Assembly (NCBI GenBank): GCA_902809985.1
Contig: CADDXC010000001.1
Location: 1,860,001 to 1,924,000 of the forward strand
Source: Clostridiaceae bacterium BL-3
GTDB lineage: Bacteria > Bacillota > Clostridia > Clostridiales > Clostridiaceae
Length of the DNA: 64,000 nt
Reading direction: 5' to 3'
This document shows positions 45,591 through 62,515 of this stretch, one piece after another. Position numbers and translations under genes: made by a program. The notes beneath the pieces are model-generated. The model was not told where the DNA came from. It saw only the letters and a list, made by a program, of their open reading frames with translations, and searched no databases. Every line of letters begins with the position of its first letter. Position 1 is the first letter of the stretch.

Positions 45591-46040
45591 ATGATTGGTG
45601 ATAATATTAGAAAAATAAGAGAAGCTAACAAATTAGGACTGAACGAAACCGCAAGAAGAGCTGGAATAAGTGCTGGCTACCTTAGTTCTCTAGAAAGAGG
45701 AGAAAAAAAGAACCCCTCCATGGACTCATTAAAAAAAATAGCAGATGCTTTAGGTGTTTCAGTAAACGATTTTTTTGACGATAAATATAATATCAATGAA
45801 GACAACGAATTTAATCCGACTCTTTCCGTGAAGGAACAGAAAAAATTAGATAAACAGGCCCAGGATATAGTAAATAATTTGTCTGTCTCATTATCAAAAA
45901 ATAAAAATTCACTTGAAGATGAGGATTATGAAATACTTCAGGCAAGTATAAGTGCGGCATTACAATCTCTTACTTTAAAAAATAAAAAGAAATTCACTCC
46001 TAAAAAATACAGAGTGAACAAAAAGAAAAAAGATGAGTAA
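45591..46040 (+). CDS. ImmR-like Xre repressor of the element
   Basis: This is a 149-residue protein. The helix-turn-helix is at residues 4-62 (IRKIREANKLGLNETARRAGISAGYLSSLERGEKKNPSMDSLKKIADAL), followed by a longer C-terminal region. AAGGAG precedes the ATG. The order repressor, ImmA-type protease, integrase is the same as in ICEBs1, where the repressor keeps excision and transfer genes off until the protease cuts it. Confidence 0.82.
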   Translation: MIGDNIRKIREANKLGLNETARRAGISAGYLSSLERGEKKNPSMDSLKKIADALGVSVNDFFDDKYNINEDNEFNPTLSVKEQKKLDKQAQDIVNNLSVSLSKNKNSLEDEDYEILQASISAALQSLTLKNKKKFTPKKYRVNKKKKDE

Positions 46041-46064
46041 ATTTCATTTTGGGGGATGGGATAA

Positions 46065-46502
46065 TTGTTTATTGAAAATTATATTCAAAGAAAAGTAAAT
46101 AAGTTAATAAAAAAATCAGCTACTTCAAATCCTGAAATAATTATGAGAACTACATTGAAACATATAGATTTTAATTACGCACCTCTTTCTAAAAACTTAA
46201 ATGGATATTATTTGTATTTATCAAAAAACAAAAGGGTAATAAGAGTAAATTCTTCACTTGATGAAATTAAGAAACAATTTGTATTATTCCATGAAACCGG
46301 TCACTGTGTACTGGAGCATGAAGATCAAGTTCTATTGGACAGAGCAGATTCAATGGATTCAGTGGATAAATTAAGAAATGAATATGATGCCAACTTATTT
46401 GCTTCATATTTTTTTAAGATACATAACAATATAGATAAAAATAATTTAAATGGTATTTGTCTCCCAGAATATATTAAATATTTAATATCTAAATTCTTAT
46501 AA
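46065..46502 (+). CDS. ImmA/IrrE-family metalloprotease (anti-repressor)
   Basis: This is a 145-residue protein. The zinc motif is HETGH (in LFHETGHCVLEH), with a downstream acidic residue in EYDANLFASYFF. It probably starts at the TTG at 46065 with GGGATGGG upstream. ImmA proteins cleave the ImmR repressor after DNA damage or a signal and so induce the element. It lies 24 bases after the repressor gene. Confidence 0.85.
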   Translation: MFIENYIQRKVNKLIKKSATSNPEIIMRTTLKHIDFNYAPLSKNLNGYYLYLSKNKRVIRVNSSLDEIKKQFVLFHETGHCVLEHEDQVLLDRADSMDSVDKLRNEYDANLFASYFFKIHNNIDKNNLNGICLPEYIKYLISKFL

Positions 46503-46591
46503 ATTATCTTTAAAGGAGGTGGTATACGTGTAAGGATATTATTATTTTTTAATTTTATACCAAACATTAGTTTGCTAAGGAGGTAATTTAA

Positions 46592-47746
46592 TTGAAAGGA
46601 AGTATTATTAAGCGAAATAATTCTTATTCCATAGTTATTGACGTAGGTAGGGACGCCTTTGGCAGACGTAAGCAACGATGGTTTAGTGGATTTAAGAATA
46701 AAGATGAAGCTGAAAAACAATTACCAAGAATACTTGTCAAACTTGAAGATGGGGAATTAATTGACAACAACAATATTACCCTTGGTAATTTTTTAGATGA
46801 CTGGTTAAAAGGTAAAATCAAAAAAGATAACTTGTCGCCTACTACAATAGACGGATATAACAATATTATATACAATCATGTAATACCTGTCATCGGTAAA
46901 TTAAAATTACAAAACATTAAGCCTTATAATCTGCAAAAATATTTTGATTTAAAAAGTGAATCTTTATCACCTAGGACATTGTCAAATCATAAAAGAGTCT
47001 TGAGTTCTGCTCTTTTATATGCATTAGACATGGATCTCATAGGAAAAAATCCATTGGCTAAAGTAAAATTACCACGACAGAAAAAAGAAGAAACCAAAAT
47101 TTTAAGTGCGGATCAATGTAACCTGCTTTTAGAAGAAGTCCAAGGCAATCTAACATTAAAAATGCCTGTTACATTAGCATTGCTTTTAGGTATGCGTCGT
47201 GGTGAAGTTTTGGGACTCAGCTGGGATGCCGTAAACTTAGATAATAAAACAATAAGTGTAATACAAAATTTAGAGTATATAAGTGGCAAATATTATTTTA
47301 AGGAACCAAAAACTTTAAAAAGCAAAAGAACTATAGCTATTCCAAAATCACTAGTTCCTATATTAAGAGAACACTACAGATGGCAATGTGAGATGAAAGT
47401 AAGAAGCAGAAATACCTGGGGTACAGATAAAAATTTAGTATGTACCAGAAAAGTAAATGGTCTTCCTATAACCCCACATGTGCTATCTTTCATGTTCAGT
47501 AATTTTTTAAAGACTCATAACTTCCCTCATATAAGATTTCACGATTTAAGGCATACAAATGCAAGTTTAATGCTAACAGCTGGAGTTAGTACTAAAGTTG
47601 CCAGTAGTAGGTTGGGACATAGTAAAGCATCTATAACTTTAGATTTGTATTCACATGTAATGGAATCTATCGACCGTGAAGCTGCTGAAAAAATAGCTAT
47701 GTTAATTAAAAGCAGTAAAAATACACATAAAAAAACACAGGCTTAA
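46592..47746 (+). CDS. int: Tyrosine-family integrase of the element
   Basis: This is a 384-residue protein. The N-terminal arm-binding domain is KGSIIKRNNSYSIVIDVGRDAFGRRKQRWFSGFKNKDEAEK, followed by a SAM-like core-binding domain (FLDDWLKGK ... LSPTTIDGYNNII). The catalytic domain has Arg in LGMRRGEVLGL, His-x-x-Arg in HDLRHTNASLM, His in LGHSKASITL and Tyr in LYSHVM. All catalytic residues are present. It integrates and, with Xis, excises the element; the right attachment site should lie just downstream. A TTG/ATG choice exists at the start; AAGGAGG stands upstream. Confidence 0.92.
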   Translation: MKGSIIKRNNSYSIVIDVGRDAFGRRKQRWFSGFKNKDEAEKQLPRILVKLEDGELIDNNNITLGNFLDDWLKGKIKKDNLSPTTIDGYNNIIYNHVIPVIGKLKLQNIKPYNLQKYFDLKSESLSPRTLSNHKRVLSSALLYALDMDLIGKNPLAKVKLPRQKKEETKILSADQCNLLLEEVQGNLTLKMPVTLALLLGMRRGEVLGLSWDAVNLDNKTISVIQNLEYISGKYYFKEPKTLKSKRTIAIPKSLVPILREHYRWQCEMKVRSRNTWGTDKNLVCTRKVNGLPITPHVLSFMFSNFLKTHNFPHIRFHDLRHTNASLMLTAGVSTKVASSRLGHSKASITLDLYSHVMESIDREAAEKIAMLIKSSKNTHKKTQA

Positions 47747-52452: not shown

Positions 52453-52793
52453 TAGTTTAATAAATTTAATTTCGTAATAGGAAATGAAAACCTTTATAAA
52501 GGTTTTCAAAACTATATCGCTGAATATTCTGATATGAACGTGGTTGAATTGTACACGGTTCATGGCTTCAACCACAAAAGAAAGCAATTAATCTATAGAT
52601 ATACTTTAATCGTATACAATATTCATAACTCTCTCAAATAAAATTATAGGATTCTGGATATACTACTAATATATTTTTTAACATTTTAATTATAAAAAAT
52701 TAAAAATAACATTATAATATACATACAGCTACATACACTTATTTAGCTTATAGATTTAAATTTTTCCATTTAATTATTGAATTCTATATACTA
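52453..52793. other. Intergenic region with a palindromic hairpin
   Basis: A perfect 22-base palindrome at 52486-52507 (GAAAACCTTTA and its complement) could form a hairpin or bind a dimeric protein. Nothing else was recognised in this 340-base stretch. Confidence 0.5.
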
Positions 52794-52821
52794 ATGAAAC
52801 AATTTGTTAATTTTGTTTCAT
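52794..52821. repeat. Left inverted repeat of the invertible segment
   Basis: 28 bases made of two 9-base arms (ATGAAACAA and its complement TTGTTTCAT) around a 10-base spacer TTTGTTAATT. This is the form of a tyrosine-recombinase core site. It is the exact reverse complement of the repeat at 53603-53630. Confidence 0.85.
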
Positions 52822-52905
52822 AACATATATATAGCATATAATACCACATATGTCTATATGTTTTGTCATTTTAATACAAATTTCTAGTACAATTTTCAGC
52901 ATATA

Positions 52906-53466
52906 TTAAAATTGAACAAGAGAATACAATTCATCTTTTTGATCCTGATTTATTCCTATATATCGAAGTGTTATATATTGAGAACTATGGTTAAAAGTAT
53001 CCATTATCAATCCTATATTATATTTAGACATTTTATATGTCCAATACCCCCAGGTTTTTCTTAAACTATGTGTTCCAAAATTCTCAATTCCACATATATT
53101 AGCACCTTCTTTTAATACTCTATAGGCCTGAATCCTTTTTATATGCCCACCTTTACGACTTGGGAACAAATATGATTCCAACACAACGTTTCTTTGTTTT
53201 ACATAATTATTTATTTCTTTTCTAATTGCATTATTTAACTTAATTTTTTTCTCTTTTCCAGTTTTCTTTTCATTTAATATCAAATAATCTTTATATTCCC
53301 AAGAAACAGTAAAAATATCTTTGATTTTTAGCGGCAATATGTCACTTATTCTGAGACCCGTATTTAACCCGAACTTCAGCATTAATCCATACTTTAAATC
53401 TTTCCCTTTTAAATAATAATAAATCTGTTTTATTTTATGTTTATCTCTTATTGGCTCAACTGTCAT
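52906..53466 (-). CDS. Small tyrosine recombinase (FimB/FimE/RecV-like), probable DNA invertase
   Basis: This 186-residue protein consists of the catalytic domain only, as in FimB, FimE and RecV (about 180-200 residues). Catalytic residues: Arg in LNTGLRISDILPLKI, Lys region in EKKTGKEKKI, His-x-x-Arg in HSLRKTWGYW, His in DTFNHSSQYITL and Tyr in RYIG. The start at the ATG at 53466 is preferred, with GGGGG upstream. It lies inside the two inverted repeats and is transcribed away from the HD-GYP gene. It probably inverts the segment that carries it. Confidence 0.82.
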   Translation of the reverse strand: MTVEPIRDKHKIKQIYYYLKGKDLKYGLMLKFGLNTGLRISDILPLKIKDIFTVSWEYKDYLILNEKKTGKEKKIKLNNAIRKEINNYVKQRNVVLESYLFPSRKGGHIKRIQAYRVLKEGANICGIENFGTHSLRKTWGYWTYKMSKYNIGLIMDTFNHSSQYITLRYIGINQDQKDELYSLVQF

Positions 53467-53602
53467 ATATAAATAAACCCCCAAATATAATTTTTATTAA
53501 TTTAACATAAAAAACGTTTCATAATATTTTTTGTCATTTAAATAATTCTTTAAATAAAATCTTTAAAGATCTTTGTAATTTATACTTTCAATATCATATT
53601 TA

Positions 53603-53630
53603 ATGAAACAAAATTAACAAATTGTTTCAT
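53603..53630. repeat. Right inverted repeat of the invertible segment
   Basis: Exact reverse complement of 52794-52821 over all 28 bases. It ends nine bases before the ribosome binding site of the HD-GYP gene (GGAGG, 53640-53644). Confidence 0.85.
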
Positions 53631-53652
53631 TAAATATATGGAGGTAGTCAAA

Positions 53653-55317
53653 ATGATTAAATCTTATAAATCTATCTTTAATAGCAATAATATTAATACT
53701 TTATTAAAAAATATAGGAGACTGTTTTAATTGTGATACAATATCAATACTTAATTTTAACATAGATAAAAATTTTGTTACATTGGATAAAATTTTAGACA
53801 TTAAAAATAATCCTTTTAAAGCTCTACCTAAATTGTCAAAAATAAATATAACTAATTTTGGCAAAAGCAAATTAAAACTATTATTTTACAATAAGGAGAT
53901 AATTTTTGTAAAAAACAATTGTACAACAAATTTTCCCATTATTTTAGAAAATGCAGAAGAGGAATTACTTATACCTATAAAAAGTAAAAATAATTTAACA
54001 ACATTCATATACATGTGTTCACTAGATACAAATGATAACCACATTAATATCGATTTTATTAATAATGACAATTTCAAATATCTTTTATACTCAATTATAA
54101 ATACATATGAGATGTATTTTCTATCCCATGAAAAAAACGAGCTTATATTTGAACTTATTTATATAATGACTGAAATACTCAAAGAAAAAGAGCCTCTTAT
54201 GGTTTTTCACCCATATAACGTAGCTGATATTTCAAAGAAAATAGCTATACAATTAAAATTAAACTATAGTTCAATAGATAAAATTTATCTCGCAGGATTA
54301 CTGCATGACATGGGAAAATTATGTATAAATAAAAATATCTTAAATAAAACAGATAACCTCACGGAAAATGAATATATAATATTAAAAGAGCATAGTATAT
54401 ACGGCTACAATCTATTAAAAAATATATATTATGACATAGCGGTATATATTAAATACCATCATGAAAAAATAGATGGGACTGGATACCCTGATAACTTGAA
54501 AGGCGATGAAATTCCTTTAGAAAGTAAAATAATTTCTGTTGCAGATGCCATAGATGCAATGTATGCAGCCAGAAGTTACAATACTTCTAAAAGTTTAGAC
54601 TCTTTAGTTACAGAGCTTCTCCATTCCGCTGATAAAAAGTTCGATAGTACAGTTGTAGATGCGGCAATAAAAGTAATAATAAAGTCTAAAAACAATAGCA
54701 TATATAAATTAGATAATAAAGTCGAATGGAGTACTCTTACAATAAAAACCTCAAAAGCATCATACTCAATAGACGGAATTCTAAGAAAAACAGATTCAGA
54801 ATATATATTTAAATCTAATGAATTTATTTTTTTAAATGATATAAACATTGCCGATATACAATGTATGCATTTATATATATGTAAAAATACAATCGATATT
54901 TATCAATATAAAATTGCTTTTAATTTCTTCAAAGAAAATACTTTACATATAAAAGAAATTCATCAAATTGAGTTTAACAACTACTTTAATCTATCATGGA
55001 ATTTACAGGGAGAACTTATATTTTGTAAATTTCCTATTAGTAGTATTGCAATATTTAAACTTGGAGGTGATTCTCTAATGTTCTACTGTCATATTAATAT
55101 AAAGGAATCTTTAACTAAACAATTTTTCAATATAAAAATTAATTTTGAGAATGATGACGAACTAATTGTTTCAGGTGCATTAATCCAGCTATTTAAATCA
55201 GGTTCAAACTATTATTATGAACTAAAATATGTAAATATACTTGAAACTGTAAGGGAAGAAATATTTTCAAGAATTTTTAAAAAACAAGCAGAACTGAATA
55301 TCGGCTTTAAATGGTAA
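53653..55317 (+). CDS. HD-GYP cyclic-di-GMP phosphodiesterase with PilZ-like C-terminus
   Basis: This 554-residue protein starts at the ATG at 53653 (GGAGG eight bases upstream). Residues 5-165 resemble a GAF-type sensor. The HD-GYP domain is at 170-345, with the HD pair in GLLHDMGKLCI and the GYP motif in YHHEKIDGTGYPDNLKGDEIP. The C-terminal 190 residues end in REEIFSRIFKKQAELN, which resembles the last helix of PilZ domains. The protein should degrade c-di-GMP and may also sense it, thereby affecting motility, adhesion or surface proteins. Its promoter must come from the invertible segment upstream. Confidence 0.83.
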   Translation: MIKSYKSIFNSNNINTLLKNIGDCFNCDTISILNFNIDKNFVTLDKILDIKNNPFKALPKLSKINITNFGKSKLKLLFYNKEIIFVKNNCTTNFPIILENAEEELLIPIKSKNNLTTFIYMCSLDTNDNHINIDFINNDNFKYLLYSIINTYEMYFLSHEKNELIFELIYIMTEILKEKEPLMVFHPYNVADISKKIAIQLKLNYSSIDKIYLAGLLHDMGKLCINKNILNKTDNLTENEYIILKEHSIYGYNLLKNIYYDIAVYIKYHHEKIDGTGYPDNLKGDEIPLESKIISVADAIDAMYAARSYNTSKSLDSLVTELLHSADKKFDSTVVDAAIKVIIKSKNNSIYKLDNKVEWSTLTIKTSKASYSIDGILRKTDSEYIFKSNEFIFLNDINIADIQCMHLYICKNTIDIYQYKIAFNFFKENTLHIKEIHQIEFNNYFNLSWNLQGELIFCKFPISSIAIFKLGGDSLMFYCHINIKESLTKQFFNIKINFENDDELIVSGALIQLFKSGSNYYYELKYVNILETVREEIFSRIFKKQAELNIGFKW

Positions 55318-55351: not shown

Positions 55352-55495
55352 ATGATGGATTGTTTCGATTTGCTTTTTAAAGATATATATAAAAACGCGG
55401 TAGTATTATTAAATAAATATAATACCAAATTTTTTTATGATAAAAGAGTATTCAATGAACTTGTACAAACTTTTGATAATGAAAAAATAGAGTAG
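55352..55495 (+). CDS. Short ORF, probably the cut N-terminus of a gene
   Basis: This 47-codon ORF starts at the ATG at 55352 with AAAGGTGA upstream and follows the HD-GYP gene by 34 bases. It reads MMDCFDLLFKDIYKNAVVLLNKYNTKFFYDKRVFNE and stops exactly where IS256-type sequence begins (55496). It may be the remaining start of a second gene of the phase-variable operon. No family was recognised. Confidence 0.45.
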   Translation: MMDCFDLLFKDIYKNAVVLLNKYNTKFFYDKRVFNELVQTFDNEKIE

Positions 55496-56498
55496 TATAG
55501 ATAACTTTCCTGACATCCGTTGAAAACTTGAATATAGGGCTTATGGCATCCCAGTTTTTTGACCAGCTGTTCATTGTTCCCGGATATTTATCCTGCCATT
55601 TTTCAGCTACTACTTCCATATTCCTATGACCTATTTCTTCTGACGGGGCCTGATATATGGTCTTTAAGTCTGAGGCAAAGGCTTTTTTGTCTTTATATGA
55701 CACATACTTCAATGTATTACGTATCTGATGTACAATGCACCTCTTGTATTCTGTTTTTGGAAATGCCGTAGATATTGATTCCTTTATACCAGAAAGCCCG
55801 TCAGCACAGAGAATAAGTATGTCTTTTACACCCCTGTTCTTGAGTTCGTTTAGGACACTGAGCCAGTATTTACTGCTTTCATTTTCGCCAATCTGGATAG
55901 ACAGAACTTCTTTCTTTCCTTCATCATTGATACCGAGAATGATATATGCGGCAAGTTTTCGTATTATACCATTATCTCTAACCGAAAAATGTACGGCATC
56001 TATAAAAACAATTGGATATATGCTTGATAGCGGGCGCTGCTGCCACTGTTCAATTTCAGATAGTAAACGATCGGTGATGTTTGATATCATTCCTTCACTT
56101 GCCTCAAAGCCATAAATATCCTCAATAATTTCAGATATCTGCCTTGTTGTCATACCCTTGGCATACATGGAAATTATTTTGTCTTCAATAGTTGAAATAT
56201 CTTTTTGACGTTTTTTTACTGTCTGTGGCTGAAAGGTACTCTGTCGGTCCTGGGGAACATTTATGTCCATTTCACCGTATTTACTTCGTATTTTCTTTGG
56301 CTTTATGCCGTTTCTACAGTTTGTTTCATCACAACGATCATATTTTTTGTATCCCAGGTGATCATCCATTTCTGCCTCCAGCATTTCCTGGAGAGTACCT
56401 CCAAGCAGGTCTTTCAATGCTTCCTGAACATCTTCTGCTGATTTGATATCGTACTCGTTGAGAAGATCCGAAATAATATTTTTCTTACCTTCAGTCAT
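55496..56498 (-). pseudogene. IS256-family (Mutator) transposase, 3' end lost
   Basis: 334 codons of transposase are present: EALKDLLGGTLQEMLEAEMDDHLGYKKYDR, first catalytic Asp in PIVFIDAVHF, second in ILCADGLSGI, and CIVHQIRNTLKYVS. It ends at DVRKVIYTT, directly before the part with the catalytic Glu (normally NAIE), and then runs into other DNA. The left end is also unusual: the ATG overlaps the stop of the kinase gene (ATGA), with no terminal repeat between. Inactive. Confidence 0.85.
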
Positions 56499-57871
56499 AA
56501 GAGTGGATATTTAATAATAAAGCTCACACCTTTTTCTCTATTTACTGCCTCAATAGTTCCATTATAAAAATCTATTATTTTTTTCGAGATAGCCAGGCCC
56601 AGTCCAAAATTACCTGTCTTATCTTTATACATATGATTGAATATCAATTTTATACTGTCCTCATCAATATGTTTTCCATCATCATATATTTCCATTACAG
56701 CAAAATTATCATTTCTTTCTAGTCTGATTTTTATAATACTTTCGGCATACCTCAACGCATTGTCCAATATATTTTCTAGACACACCTTTATTTTTTCCTC
56801 ATTTGCAAAGATAATGCTGCTGCTTGTCTCTAATTCCCATTTAATATCATCACTGACTACTTTAAACTTATCCACCATATCACTGACAACATCCCTCAAA
56901 TCCATGCTTTTATTCTTTTCACTCTCAAGGTTATTCTCCAATGTATATTCCAACGTGTTGAGATAGAGTATCTGTTTTACCTTTTTCTCAAGTCCAATTG
57001 ACTCATCCTTTATTATTTCTGCTGTTCTTTCAGGAGAATCTATATAAACACCATCTATAATTGCCTGGGCATGGCTCATAATAACCATGACTGTTGTTTT
57101 TAAACTGTGGGATATACTTTGGAGAAATATCTTTTCGTTTTCATCGGCATATTTTAGTTTCTTCTGCATGATATTCATTGACCTGGCAAGTTTGCCAATC
57201 TCATCATCATTGTCAATTTTAATGGGTTCAACCCAATTCTTGTCTGCTATTTCTCTTGTATAATTTTCTAATTTTTTAAGAGGCTTTGATATATATGTCG
57301 CAACAAGTTTTGAGGTAATAAAAGCTATAATGATAAATATCATCCCTATCAATATTACCTCATATAAAAACTTATTATCTACATAATATGGCATATATGT
57401 CACAAAGTATGATTTCAATGAGTCCGTATTTTTTATTGGACTTATTATGATTAAATATTCTACTTTATCGTAATAGGCTCTAAATTGTGTTTCTGATTTT
57501 ATATTTTTTGCAAAGGAACTTATCCAATCTATTCTTTTAGCTCCTGGACTTCCATTCATAGGTAAAGAATTATTGGTAGGATTGTTTACATATTGTATTT
57601 CTTTTTCCCCATGGTTAAAATTGACAATAAAGTTTTCAACATTAATAAGATTTCTCATTTTAGTAAAGTCTGGCGGATGATTAAAATCATCGTCTTTTAA
57701 AATTATATCATGATATGCTTTCATATCTTTGATATGATTATTTTTATCAATATACCTAAAACTATATAAATATAATAATGAAATAAGAAATATTATAATA
57801 ATTATTATAAATGTAAATATCAGCCATATTCTTATGGTCATAGATTTTATCCTGAATTTAAATATTTTCAT
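56495..57871 (-). CDS. Sensor histidine kinase 1 (orphan)
   Basis: This is a 458-residue protein with two membrane helices (about 10-34 and 175-195), an extracellular sensor of about 140 residues, a HAMP domain (KPLKKLENYTREIADKNWVEPI), phosphoacceptor His in FLQSISHSLKTTV and HATPase motifs (LDNALRYAES, GNFGLGLAISKKII). The kinase core is almost identical to that of the kinase at 61043, also at DNA level, while the sensors differ. No response regulator lies beside it, so it may signal through the regulator at 62512. Its last codons are joined to an IS256 remnant. Confidence 0.88.
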   Translation of the reverse strand: MKIFKFRIKSMTIRIWLIFTFIIIIIIFLISLLYLYSFRYIDKNNHIKDMKAYHDIILKDDDFNHPPDFTKMRNLINVENFIVNFNHGEKEIQYVNNPTNNSLPMNGSPGAKRIDWISSFAKNIKSETQFRAYYDKVEYLIIISPIKNTDSLKSYFVTYMPYYVDNKFLYEVILIGMIFIIIAFITSKLVATYISKPLKKLENYTREIADKNWVEPIKIDNDDEIGKLARSMNIMQKKLKYADENEKIFLQSISHSLKTTVMVIMSHAQAIIDGVYIDSPERTAEIIKDESIGLEKKVKQILYLNTLEYTLENNLESEKNKSMDLRDVVSDMVDKFKVVSDDIKWELETSSSIIFANEEKIKVCLENILDNALRYAESIIKIRLERNDNFAVMEIYDDGKHIDEDSIKLIFNHMYKDKTGNFGLGLAISKKIIDFYNGTIEAVNREKGVSFIIKYPLL

Positions 57872-61042: not shown

Positions 61043-62515
61043 CTAATTTGAATTACAACGTAAGAGCGGATGTTTAATAATAAAGCTCACACCTTTTTCT
61101 CTATTTACTGCCTCAATAGTTCCATTATAAAAATCTATTATTTTTTTCGAGATAGCCAGGCCCAGTCCAAAATTACCTGTCTTATCTTTATACATATGAT
61201 TGAATATCAATTTTATACTGTCCTCATCAATATGTTTTCCATCATCATATATTTCTACTACAGCAAAATCACCCTCTTTTTTCAACTTGATTTTTATAAT
61301 GCTTTCGGCATACCTCAACGCATTGTCCAATATATTTTCTAGACACACCTTTATTTTTTCCTCATTTGCAAAGATAATGCTGCTGCTTGTCTCTAATTCC
61401 CATTTAATATCATCACTGACTACTTTAAACTTATCCACCATATCACTGACAACATCCCTCAAATCCATGCTTTTATTCTTTTCACTCTCAAGGTTATTCT
61501 CCAATGTATATTCCAACGTGTTGAGATAGAGTATCTGTTTTACCTTTTTCTCAAGTCCAATTGACTCATCCTTTATTATTTCTGCTGTTCTTTCAGGAGA
61601 ATCTATATAAACACCATCTATAATTGCCTGGGCATGGCTCATAATAACCATGACTGTTGTTTTTAAACTGTGGGATATACTTTGGAGAAATATCTTCTCG
61701 TTTTCATCGGCATATTTTAGTTTCTTCTGCATGATATTCATTGACCTGGCAAGTTTGCCAATTTCATCATCACTGCTAATTTTAATAGGTTCAACCCAAT
61801 TCTTGTCTGCTATTTCTTTTGTATAGTTTTCTAATTTTTTAAGGGGTTTTGATATATATACTGCAACAAATTTTGAAGTAAAAAAAGCTATGACAATAAA
61901 TATAAATCCTATAACAATAGCATAGTATAAAAATCTATTATCTGTAAAATACGGCATATACGTTACTAAACATAATTTTTCCTTATGGCTGTTTTTTATT
62001 GGACTCATAATAATCAAATACTTTTTATTATTATGGTACGATTTAAATTCCTTTTCAATCTTTAAATGCTTCGTATAACTTACCATCCACTGTACATCTT
62101 TATTATTTTCAGGCCTTTCATTATCTCGAGGTTCTACAGTTTTTCTTTGATTTCCATTTTCTTTATATGTAGGAATAGCTTTATTCTTTCCGTTTTTAAC
62201 TTCTTGACGCAAAGGTGGCATATTATTAGGAAGATTATTCAAATAGGTTATTTCATTTCTGTTATTTATATTAACTACAAAACTTTTAACCATTTTAAGA
62301 TTTCTTAGTTTATCAAATCTAACGGGCTCCTTAAAATTATTACTTTTGAGTAACATTTCATGAACTACTTTCATATCTTTCATATGAATATTCTCATCAA
62401 ATGTTTTAAAGTTAAATAGGTATAAAAGTGAAATGCACAATATTATGATAATACTGGTAGTTGTGAAAGTTATCCATATCCTCATCATCAATGATTTTAT
62501 CTTAAATATCTTCAT
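61043..62515 (-). CDS. Sensor histidine kinase 2
   Basis: This is a 490-residue protein with membrane helices at about 10-34 and 205-228. The extracellular sensor is larger than that of kinase 1 and contains a charged insert (GKNKAIPTYKENGNQRKT). HAMP, His box (FLQSISHSLKTTV) and ATPase motifs are as in kinase 1, with only a few differences over the last 265 residues. It overlaps the response-regulator gene by four bases (ATGA), so they are a translationally coupled two-component system. Confidence 0.92.
   Translation of the reverse strand: MKIFKIKSLMMRIWITFTTTSIIIILCISLLYLFNFKTFDENIHMKDMKVVHEMLLKSNNFKEPVRFDKLRNLKMVKSFVVNINNRNEITYLNNLPNNMPPLRQEVKNGKNKAIPTYKENGNQRKTVEPRDNERPENNKDVQWMVSYTKHLKIEKEFKSYHNNKKYLIIMSPIKNSHKEKLCLVTYMPYFTDNRFLYYAIVIGFIFIVIAFFTSKFVAVYISKPLKKLENYTKEIADKNWVEPIKISSDDEIGKLARSMNIMQKKLKYADENEKIFLQSISHSLKTTVMVIMSHAQAIIDGVYIDSPERTAEIIKDESIGLEKKVKQILYLNTLEYTLENNLESEKNKSMDLRDVVSDMVDKFKVVSDDIKWELETSSSIIFANEEKIKVCLENILDNALRYAESIIKIKLKKEGDFAVVEIYDDGKHIDEDSIKLIFNHMYKDKTGNFGLGLAISKKIIDFYNGTIEAVNREKGVSFIIKHPLLRCNSN

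Follow-up and report, generated by a model that had tools for sequence, protein, structure and literature searches.

How is a c-di-GMP phosphodiesterase-type gene controlled when a recombinase gene between two inverted repeats abuts its start? This question is raised by a locus in a 64,000-nucleotide stretch of DNA from Clostridiaceae bacterium BL-3 (hereafter the window), for which a first-pass annotation had proposed an invertible promoter switch. The features concerned, in window positions, are the following.

52792..52821, no strand: distal recombination site, matching the proximal site as an exact inverted repeat over 30 bp
52828..52856, minus strand: candidate promoter TAGACA-N17-TATATA, pointing outward through the distal site, conserved in the relative G008
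52838..52846, minus strand: extended -10 TGGTATTAT of the first-pass annotation
52906..53484, minus strand: small catalytic-domain-only tyrosine recombinase with a Phage_integrase domain, likely start 53466
53531..53560, plus strand: promoter-like TTGTCA-N18-TAAAAT, facing the HD-GYP gene at present, not conserved in G008
53603..53632, no strand: proximal recombination site, adjoining the HD-GYP gene; its palindrome reaches 53596-53637
53638..55317, plus strand: target HD-GYP phosphodiesterase-type gene, likely start the ATG at 53653 behind a GGAGG

The two sites had been described as exact reverse complements of 28 bp and proved slightly longer, the exact inverted repeat covering 30 bp (52792-52821 and 53603-53632). 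They matched in 28 of 28 columns, crossover sequence included. Every copy of the site was palindromic with the structure TGAAACAA-N10-TTGTTTCA, that is, with the 9-bp arms around a 10-bp spacer reported at first. A chance origin of the repeats was ruled out by 20 first-order Markov simulations of the window, none of which gave an exact inverted pair of at least 18 bp within 3 kb. Without mismatch, the site pattern occurred at exactly two places in the 3.86-Mb genome, ruling out a recombinase that serves many copies of the exact window site, and one match to the window-type recombinase was found in this genome at E<=1e-40.

The recombinase was the sole ORF of at least 60 aa between the sites and at this length cut-off is, as claimed, the only gene there. 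Its product matched Phage_integrase (E 1.2e-21) and carried, together with this domain, the R, H-x-x-R, H and Y residues of tyrosine recombinases; R45, H139, R142, H166 and Y175 were invariant across the 69 recombinase loci described below. The start was placed at 53466, probably, because relatives begin at MTVEPI. The best NCBIfam match was XerA-like, with 57.6 bits against a cut-off of 220. Small and consisting of the catalytic domain only, the enzyme is like the FimB/FimE-type invertases, but the match to their model was weak (PRK09871, 29.6 bits against a curated cut-off of 222), and of the initial label 'FimB/RecV type' the size was retained and the family was not. FimB and FimE genes sit outside their switch, unlike the window recombinase.

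On the other side of the proximal site, the protein encoded at 53638-55317 matched Pfam HD_5 (E 2.2e-29) and HD, and HDMGK and HHEKIDGTGYP were legible in its translation; the latter fits HHExxDGxGYP, which we take to be the HD-GYP phosphodiesterase motif. The HD domain and the motif, the latter read from the translation, support a c-di-GMP phosphodiesterase-type protein, an assignment that comparison with relatives bore out. The proximal site ends at 53632, the frame opens with an ATG at 53638, GGAGG occupies 53640-53644 and the likelier start is the ATG at 53653. The gap, 5 bp to the frame or 20 bp to the ATG behind GGAGG, is too short to accommodate a promoter, in keeping with the first-pass argument that the promoter lies within the segment.

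In relatives, the C-terminal part of the HD-GYP protein appears to decay: the orthologue in G011 (L156 5472-7141) was split into frames of 414 and 125 aa, and that of G008 was shorter (462 aa). Just 3' of the gene in the window, a short remnant ORF (about 55355-55495) is abutted by a Mutator-family transposase gene (55452-56498). Elsewhere in the window, two sensor-kinase-like genes (56495-57871 and 61043-62515) share a long near-identical C-terminal part and have different N-terminal parts (by eye), as if duplication and gene conversion had taken place. The region 45591-47746 holds in a row an XRE-like regulator, a metalloprotease-like ORF (both by eye) and a phage integrase, and is probably the end of an integrated element.

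Which promoter could serve the HD-GYP gene? The first-pass annotation had pointed to the extended -10 at the far end, next to the recombinase 3' end. The motif was present at 52838-52846 on the minus strand, and its absence from G008, the nearest relative, whose recombinase is 90-92% identical to that of the window, ruled it out as a conserved promoter. Conserved in G008 beside it was the TAGACA-N17-TATATA element, which is weak, 25 of 40 shuffles scoring as well. Neither strong promoter type, sigma-A-like or sigma-H-like, was found on the recombinase 3' side of the window. At the other end of the segment, TTGTCA-N18-TAAAAT outscored the far-end element, being equalled by no more than 1 in 100 shuffles. 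With a weak far-end promoter and a better-scoring promoter-like sequence that faces the gene now, ON and OFF could therefore be reversed. The more general claim, a far-end promoter that would face the target after inversion, was supported by comparison with relatives.

In G002, a genome of the same genus, the HD-GYP orthologue was present (57%) and no such recombinase was found at E<=1e-40. Directly upstream of this orthologue and facing it, a stretch was 82% identical over 57 bp to the far end of the window segment (52.7 bits; the best of 100 shuffles reached 39.2). This statistic alone is modest, because a second match, inside the gene, also exceeded the shuffles with 42.8 bits. The arrangement is as would be expected after inversion and then loss of the enzyme. 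In G011, a single site preceded the HD-GYP orthologue, with no second site within 3 mismatches across the genome. The G002 relic and the solitary G011 site point to a cassette that was inherited and later lost.

A search of other genomes for the same cassette, one of the checks proposed initially, gave 69 recombinase loci, 52 of them with a recognised site pair. Sequence comparison places the window cassette in a clostridial family of self-contained cassettes. The search took in genomes at the ranks of genus, family, order, class and phylum, as well as named genome contigs (31 loci). The 69 loci, window included, matched nearly full length at about 54% identity or more; weaker matches, partial matches (L031, L053 and L054), L055, G331 and nine exact duplicates, one of them the second copy in the L049 contig, were left out. 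L143 and L144 were counted as two of the 69 and are probably one locus. Distant loci (54-60%; for example G003, G005, G006 and G010, with a 460-aa gene downstream) were kept. Five distant recombinases of the same genus (L064-L068, 54-57%) had no site pair, and all five had a 460-aa gene downstream.

Site pairs were recognised in 47 of 52 loci with at least 66% identity, in 4 of 8 between 60 and 66% and in 1 of 9 below 60%, and were missing in 17 of the 69; L147, whose contig starts beside the gene and which fitted poorly, was left out of the site counts. Five loci of at least 66% identity lacked a pair; gaps in the assembly affect one of them, L031, and a single exact-pattern site is present in each of L114 and L032. 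In L114 (5467-8786), the recombinase has this site to its left, and a candidate partner with 3 mismatches in 24 was seen about 2.6 kb beyond; if real, it would also enclose a chemoreceptor-cluster gene. The site consensus (by eye) was ATGYAACAAT-N8-ATTGTTRCAT. As regards a viral origin, two related loci were present in a viral collection, the first possessing a site pair and the second lacking it. The four cassettes of G475 and the two of G714 each had a centre different from any other in the same genome, and should therefore not recombine with each other.

Tyrosine recombinases need matching overlap sequences. When sites were sought by their arms, blind to the centre, they were present on both sides in 50 of the 69 loci, or 41 after dereplication. 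The central 5 bp were identical in inverted orientation in 40 of these 41 loci and in direct orientation in none, and they agreed between different loci in 29 of 1640 pairs. The sole exception, L032, had unlike centres in its two arm-defined sites. We prefer 40/41 to the result of an earlier within-locus comparison (41/41), which was partly true by construction, pairs having been picked as the best inverted repeat; 38 different central 8-mers were present across the 41 loci of this earlier, less neutral set. The 41-locus sets used for central 8-mers, promoters and arms-only sites are not exactly identical. Centres that match in inverted orientation within loci are as inversion by strand exchange would require.

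Both orientations were present in the assembly of a relative, G931. The same cassette is present in two of its contigs, with 99% identity over 881 bp, and both contigs end inside the distal site. In one contig the cassette is joined to the HD-domain target gene; in the other it adjoins the gene found across from that target in the closed relative G969 (presumably Desulfitobacterium dehalogenans ATCC 51507), and the alignment breaks at the site. A population of mixed orientation would give such contigs; two separate copies or a misassembly could also do so, though less simply. For Clostridia, PMC5903667 (2018) describes inversion signatures in sequencing reads close to chemotaxis and signalling genes, and an inversion signature beside an HD-type phosphodiesterase gene in Desulfitobacterium dehalogenans ATCC 51507, and we infer that the G969 cassette locus is this inversion locus. 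Comparison with relatives supports an inverting segment with its own recombinase, as first suggested, and the segment of the window would likewise invert.

Of the 52 loci with a site pair, 45 were used for choosing a neighbour gene, which could lie as much as about 0.9 kb from the site, and seven were left out: five near relatives (L026, L028, L037, L043 and L046), a contig end (L039) and L144. At L125, L119, L120, L124 and L127 the second ORF was taken, the first being antisense or short (that of L124, 249 aa, clusters with chemoreceptors). Chemotaxis, c-di-GMP turnover or FapA genes accounted for 43 of the 45 neighbours: 13 of HD-GYP type, 5 EAL, 8 chemoreceptors plus 1 truncated, 4 CheW, 2 CheA, 6 CheY-like and 4 FapA. 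The remaining two matched a transporter and a transposase. In 40 of these 43 loci, target and recombinase were oriented divergently, with the target beyond the recombinase 5' end, and flipping, if free, would therefore be strongly biased or rare in sequenced cultures. In L034, L132 and L142, the target lay on the recombinase 3' side and the recombinase leader was unusually short (25-42 bp); the enzyme promoter would there be outside the segment, so that flipping might silence the recombinase.

Of 41 loci, 26 had an outward promoter on the 3' side of the recombinase; it was sigma-A-like in 13 and sigma-H-like in a separate 13. In the other 15, window included, no strong one was found there. Sigma-A-like promoters, called when at most 1 of 100 dinucleotide shuffles equalled the score, occurred on the 3' side in 13/41 loci and on the 5' side in 2/41 (the window and L034). 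The sigma-H-like pattern GGA-N15-TCG(A/T)A occurred in 13/41 and 0/41, respectively; of the spacings from 8 to 23, 15 gave 13 loci, 18 gave 2 and the others none. It had 26 copies in 942 kb of loci on both strands, and therefore half of all copies fall in the short 3'-side regions. The pattern equals AGGA and GAAT 17 nt apart, and the SigH motif of Sporomusa is given, in the available part of PMC12456013, as these two elements 17-18 nt apart. In G475, three of six strict genome-wide sigma-H matches were in cassettes; the genes behind the other three, judged by eye, appear to encode a sensor, an HD-type protein and an actin-like ATPase. Chemotaxis targets had sigma-H-type over sigma-A-type promoters by 11 to 1, and phosphodiesterase targets sigma-A over sigma-H by 9 to 0 (Fisher p 3.4e-5, for a post hoc grouping that leaves out FapA and unidentified targets). 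Because the target is on the side opposite to these promoters at 40 of the 43 loci, the assembled state is probably OFF.

We propose, with a probability of roughly 0.75, that 52792-53632 is a self-contained invertible promoter cassette, flipped by its own recombinase, whose far-end promoter would drive the HD-GYP gene after inversion. The proposal builds on the anatomy of the locus, its conservation, the inverted match of crossover sequences within loci and the two orientations in the assembly of a relative. In this strain, the enclosed tyrosine recombinase would recombine both flanking sites, flipping the segment and its own gene. A promoter located past the recombinase 3' end and before the distal site would point outward, in the assembled orientation away from the HD-GYP gene (presumed OFF), and after inversion it would transcribe this gene and c-di-GMP would be lowered. 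Speaking against the proposal are the weak far-end promoter, the better-scoring sequence that faces the gene now, the one-sided position of the targets, the 15 of 41 loci lacking a strong outward promoter on the 3' side, the 17 of 69 lacking a recognised site pair and the unlike centres of L032.

The segment might also invert and be ON as assembled, a 5'-side promoter driving the HD-GYP gene and inversion switching it off. We consider this unlikely: TTGTCA-N18-TAAAAT (53531-53560) faces the gene and scores well against shuffles, but it is not conserved in G008, strong outward promoters occurred on the 5' side in 2/41 loci (window, L034) versus 26/41 on the 3' side, and the far-end element faces the gene in G002. 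Much less probable would be a small mobile element, consisting of a tyrosine recombinase and terminal inverted repeats, that inserts near signalling genes and inverts incidentally. Its patchy distribution (at E<=1e-60, 15/391 genomes of the class and 14/398 of the phylum, counting the BL-3 genome) would suit such an element, as would the four G475 copies and the two identical copies in the L049 contig, whereas neighbour genes of the same functions in 43/45 loci, the four different centres of the G475 copies and, at the HD-GYP locus of the one genus compared, the G002 relic beside the same gene together with the lone G011 site argue against it. We give least credence to palindromes acting in RNA or as operators, such as a hairpin or attenuator before the HD-GYP ribosome site, with no recombination. 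The proximal site does form a 16-bp perfect hairpin immediately 5' of GGAGG, and in C. difficile the flg and cwpV switches exert their effect once transcription has initiated (PMC9286219). However, the identical inverted far-end copy, the centres that vary between loci yet match inverted within them, and the two orientations in G931 would be left unexplained.

The invertible promoter cassette that we favour shares its layout with Hin of Salmonella, in which the recombinase gene is inside the invertible segment together with an outward promoter. Hin is of serine type, unlike the tyrosine recombinase of the window, and its sites and target differ too. Inversions near signalling genes in Clostridia are already known, in print since 2018 (PMC5903667, PLoS Genet). 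The window cassette resembles the clostridial sites in the available part of that paper, some beside chemotaxis genes in C. thermocellum, in belonging to Clostridia and having chemotaxis or signalling neighbours, and inversion there was seen in reads. Unlike for the window, this part describes no enclosed recombinase family, sites or promoters for those loci; it mentions an enclosed recombinase for a Providencia segment only, and it names the Hin invertase.

Phase-variable c-di-GMP breakdown is also in print for C. difficile, where, in the portion of PMC9286219 at hand, an invertible promoter lies upstream of a c-di-GMP phosphodiesterase in the pdcB and pdcC switches, with pdcB in OFF orientation in the reference genome. 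The pdcB switch differs in that its recombinase is stated by the paper not to be identified and in that the PdcB domain is EAL, not HD-GYP. The RecV/flg switch of C. difficile similarly combines a tyrosine recombinase with inverted repeats, there of 21 bp; unlike the window enzyme, RecV acts on several switches located elsewhere in the genome, the 154-bp flg switch among them, and the flg repeat AAGTT(A/G)CTAT(A/T)TTACAAAAAA is unlike TGYAACA-N12-TGTTRCA (compared by eye, sites only; PMC5386303, as excerpted). Inverton group 139 of Clostridia is alike, by description only, in that gut Clostridia invertons are statistically linked to a tyrosine-type recombinase group; in the text available from PMC11892184, its example measures about 250 bp and 'chemotaxis' is absent from the main text. 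A literature search reaching few subscription journals and no preprints returned no account of the enclosed-recombinase family, the site code or the two promoter classes.

For the family as a whole, we would lay even odds on self-carrying inversion cassettes being, across Clostridia, private bet-hedging switches for chemotaxis and c-di-GMP operons. Each would have its own crossover sequence, allowing several per genome without cross-recombination, and a promoter suited to its target (sigma-H, of transition phase, for chemotaxis; sigma-A for phosphodiesterases), and most would be OFF. It could be tested which members of a clone respond chemotactically or degrade c-di-GMP, and how closely related enzymes share one genome. 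Because each recombinase comes with its own sites, such cassettes can be found easily, and they are candidate parts for genetic switches. The best-known invertible promoters belong to surface structures; in the present family, a compact module of recombinase, promoter and sites appears to have been fitted repeatedly to the circuits by which cells move or settle.
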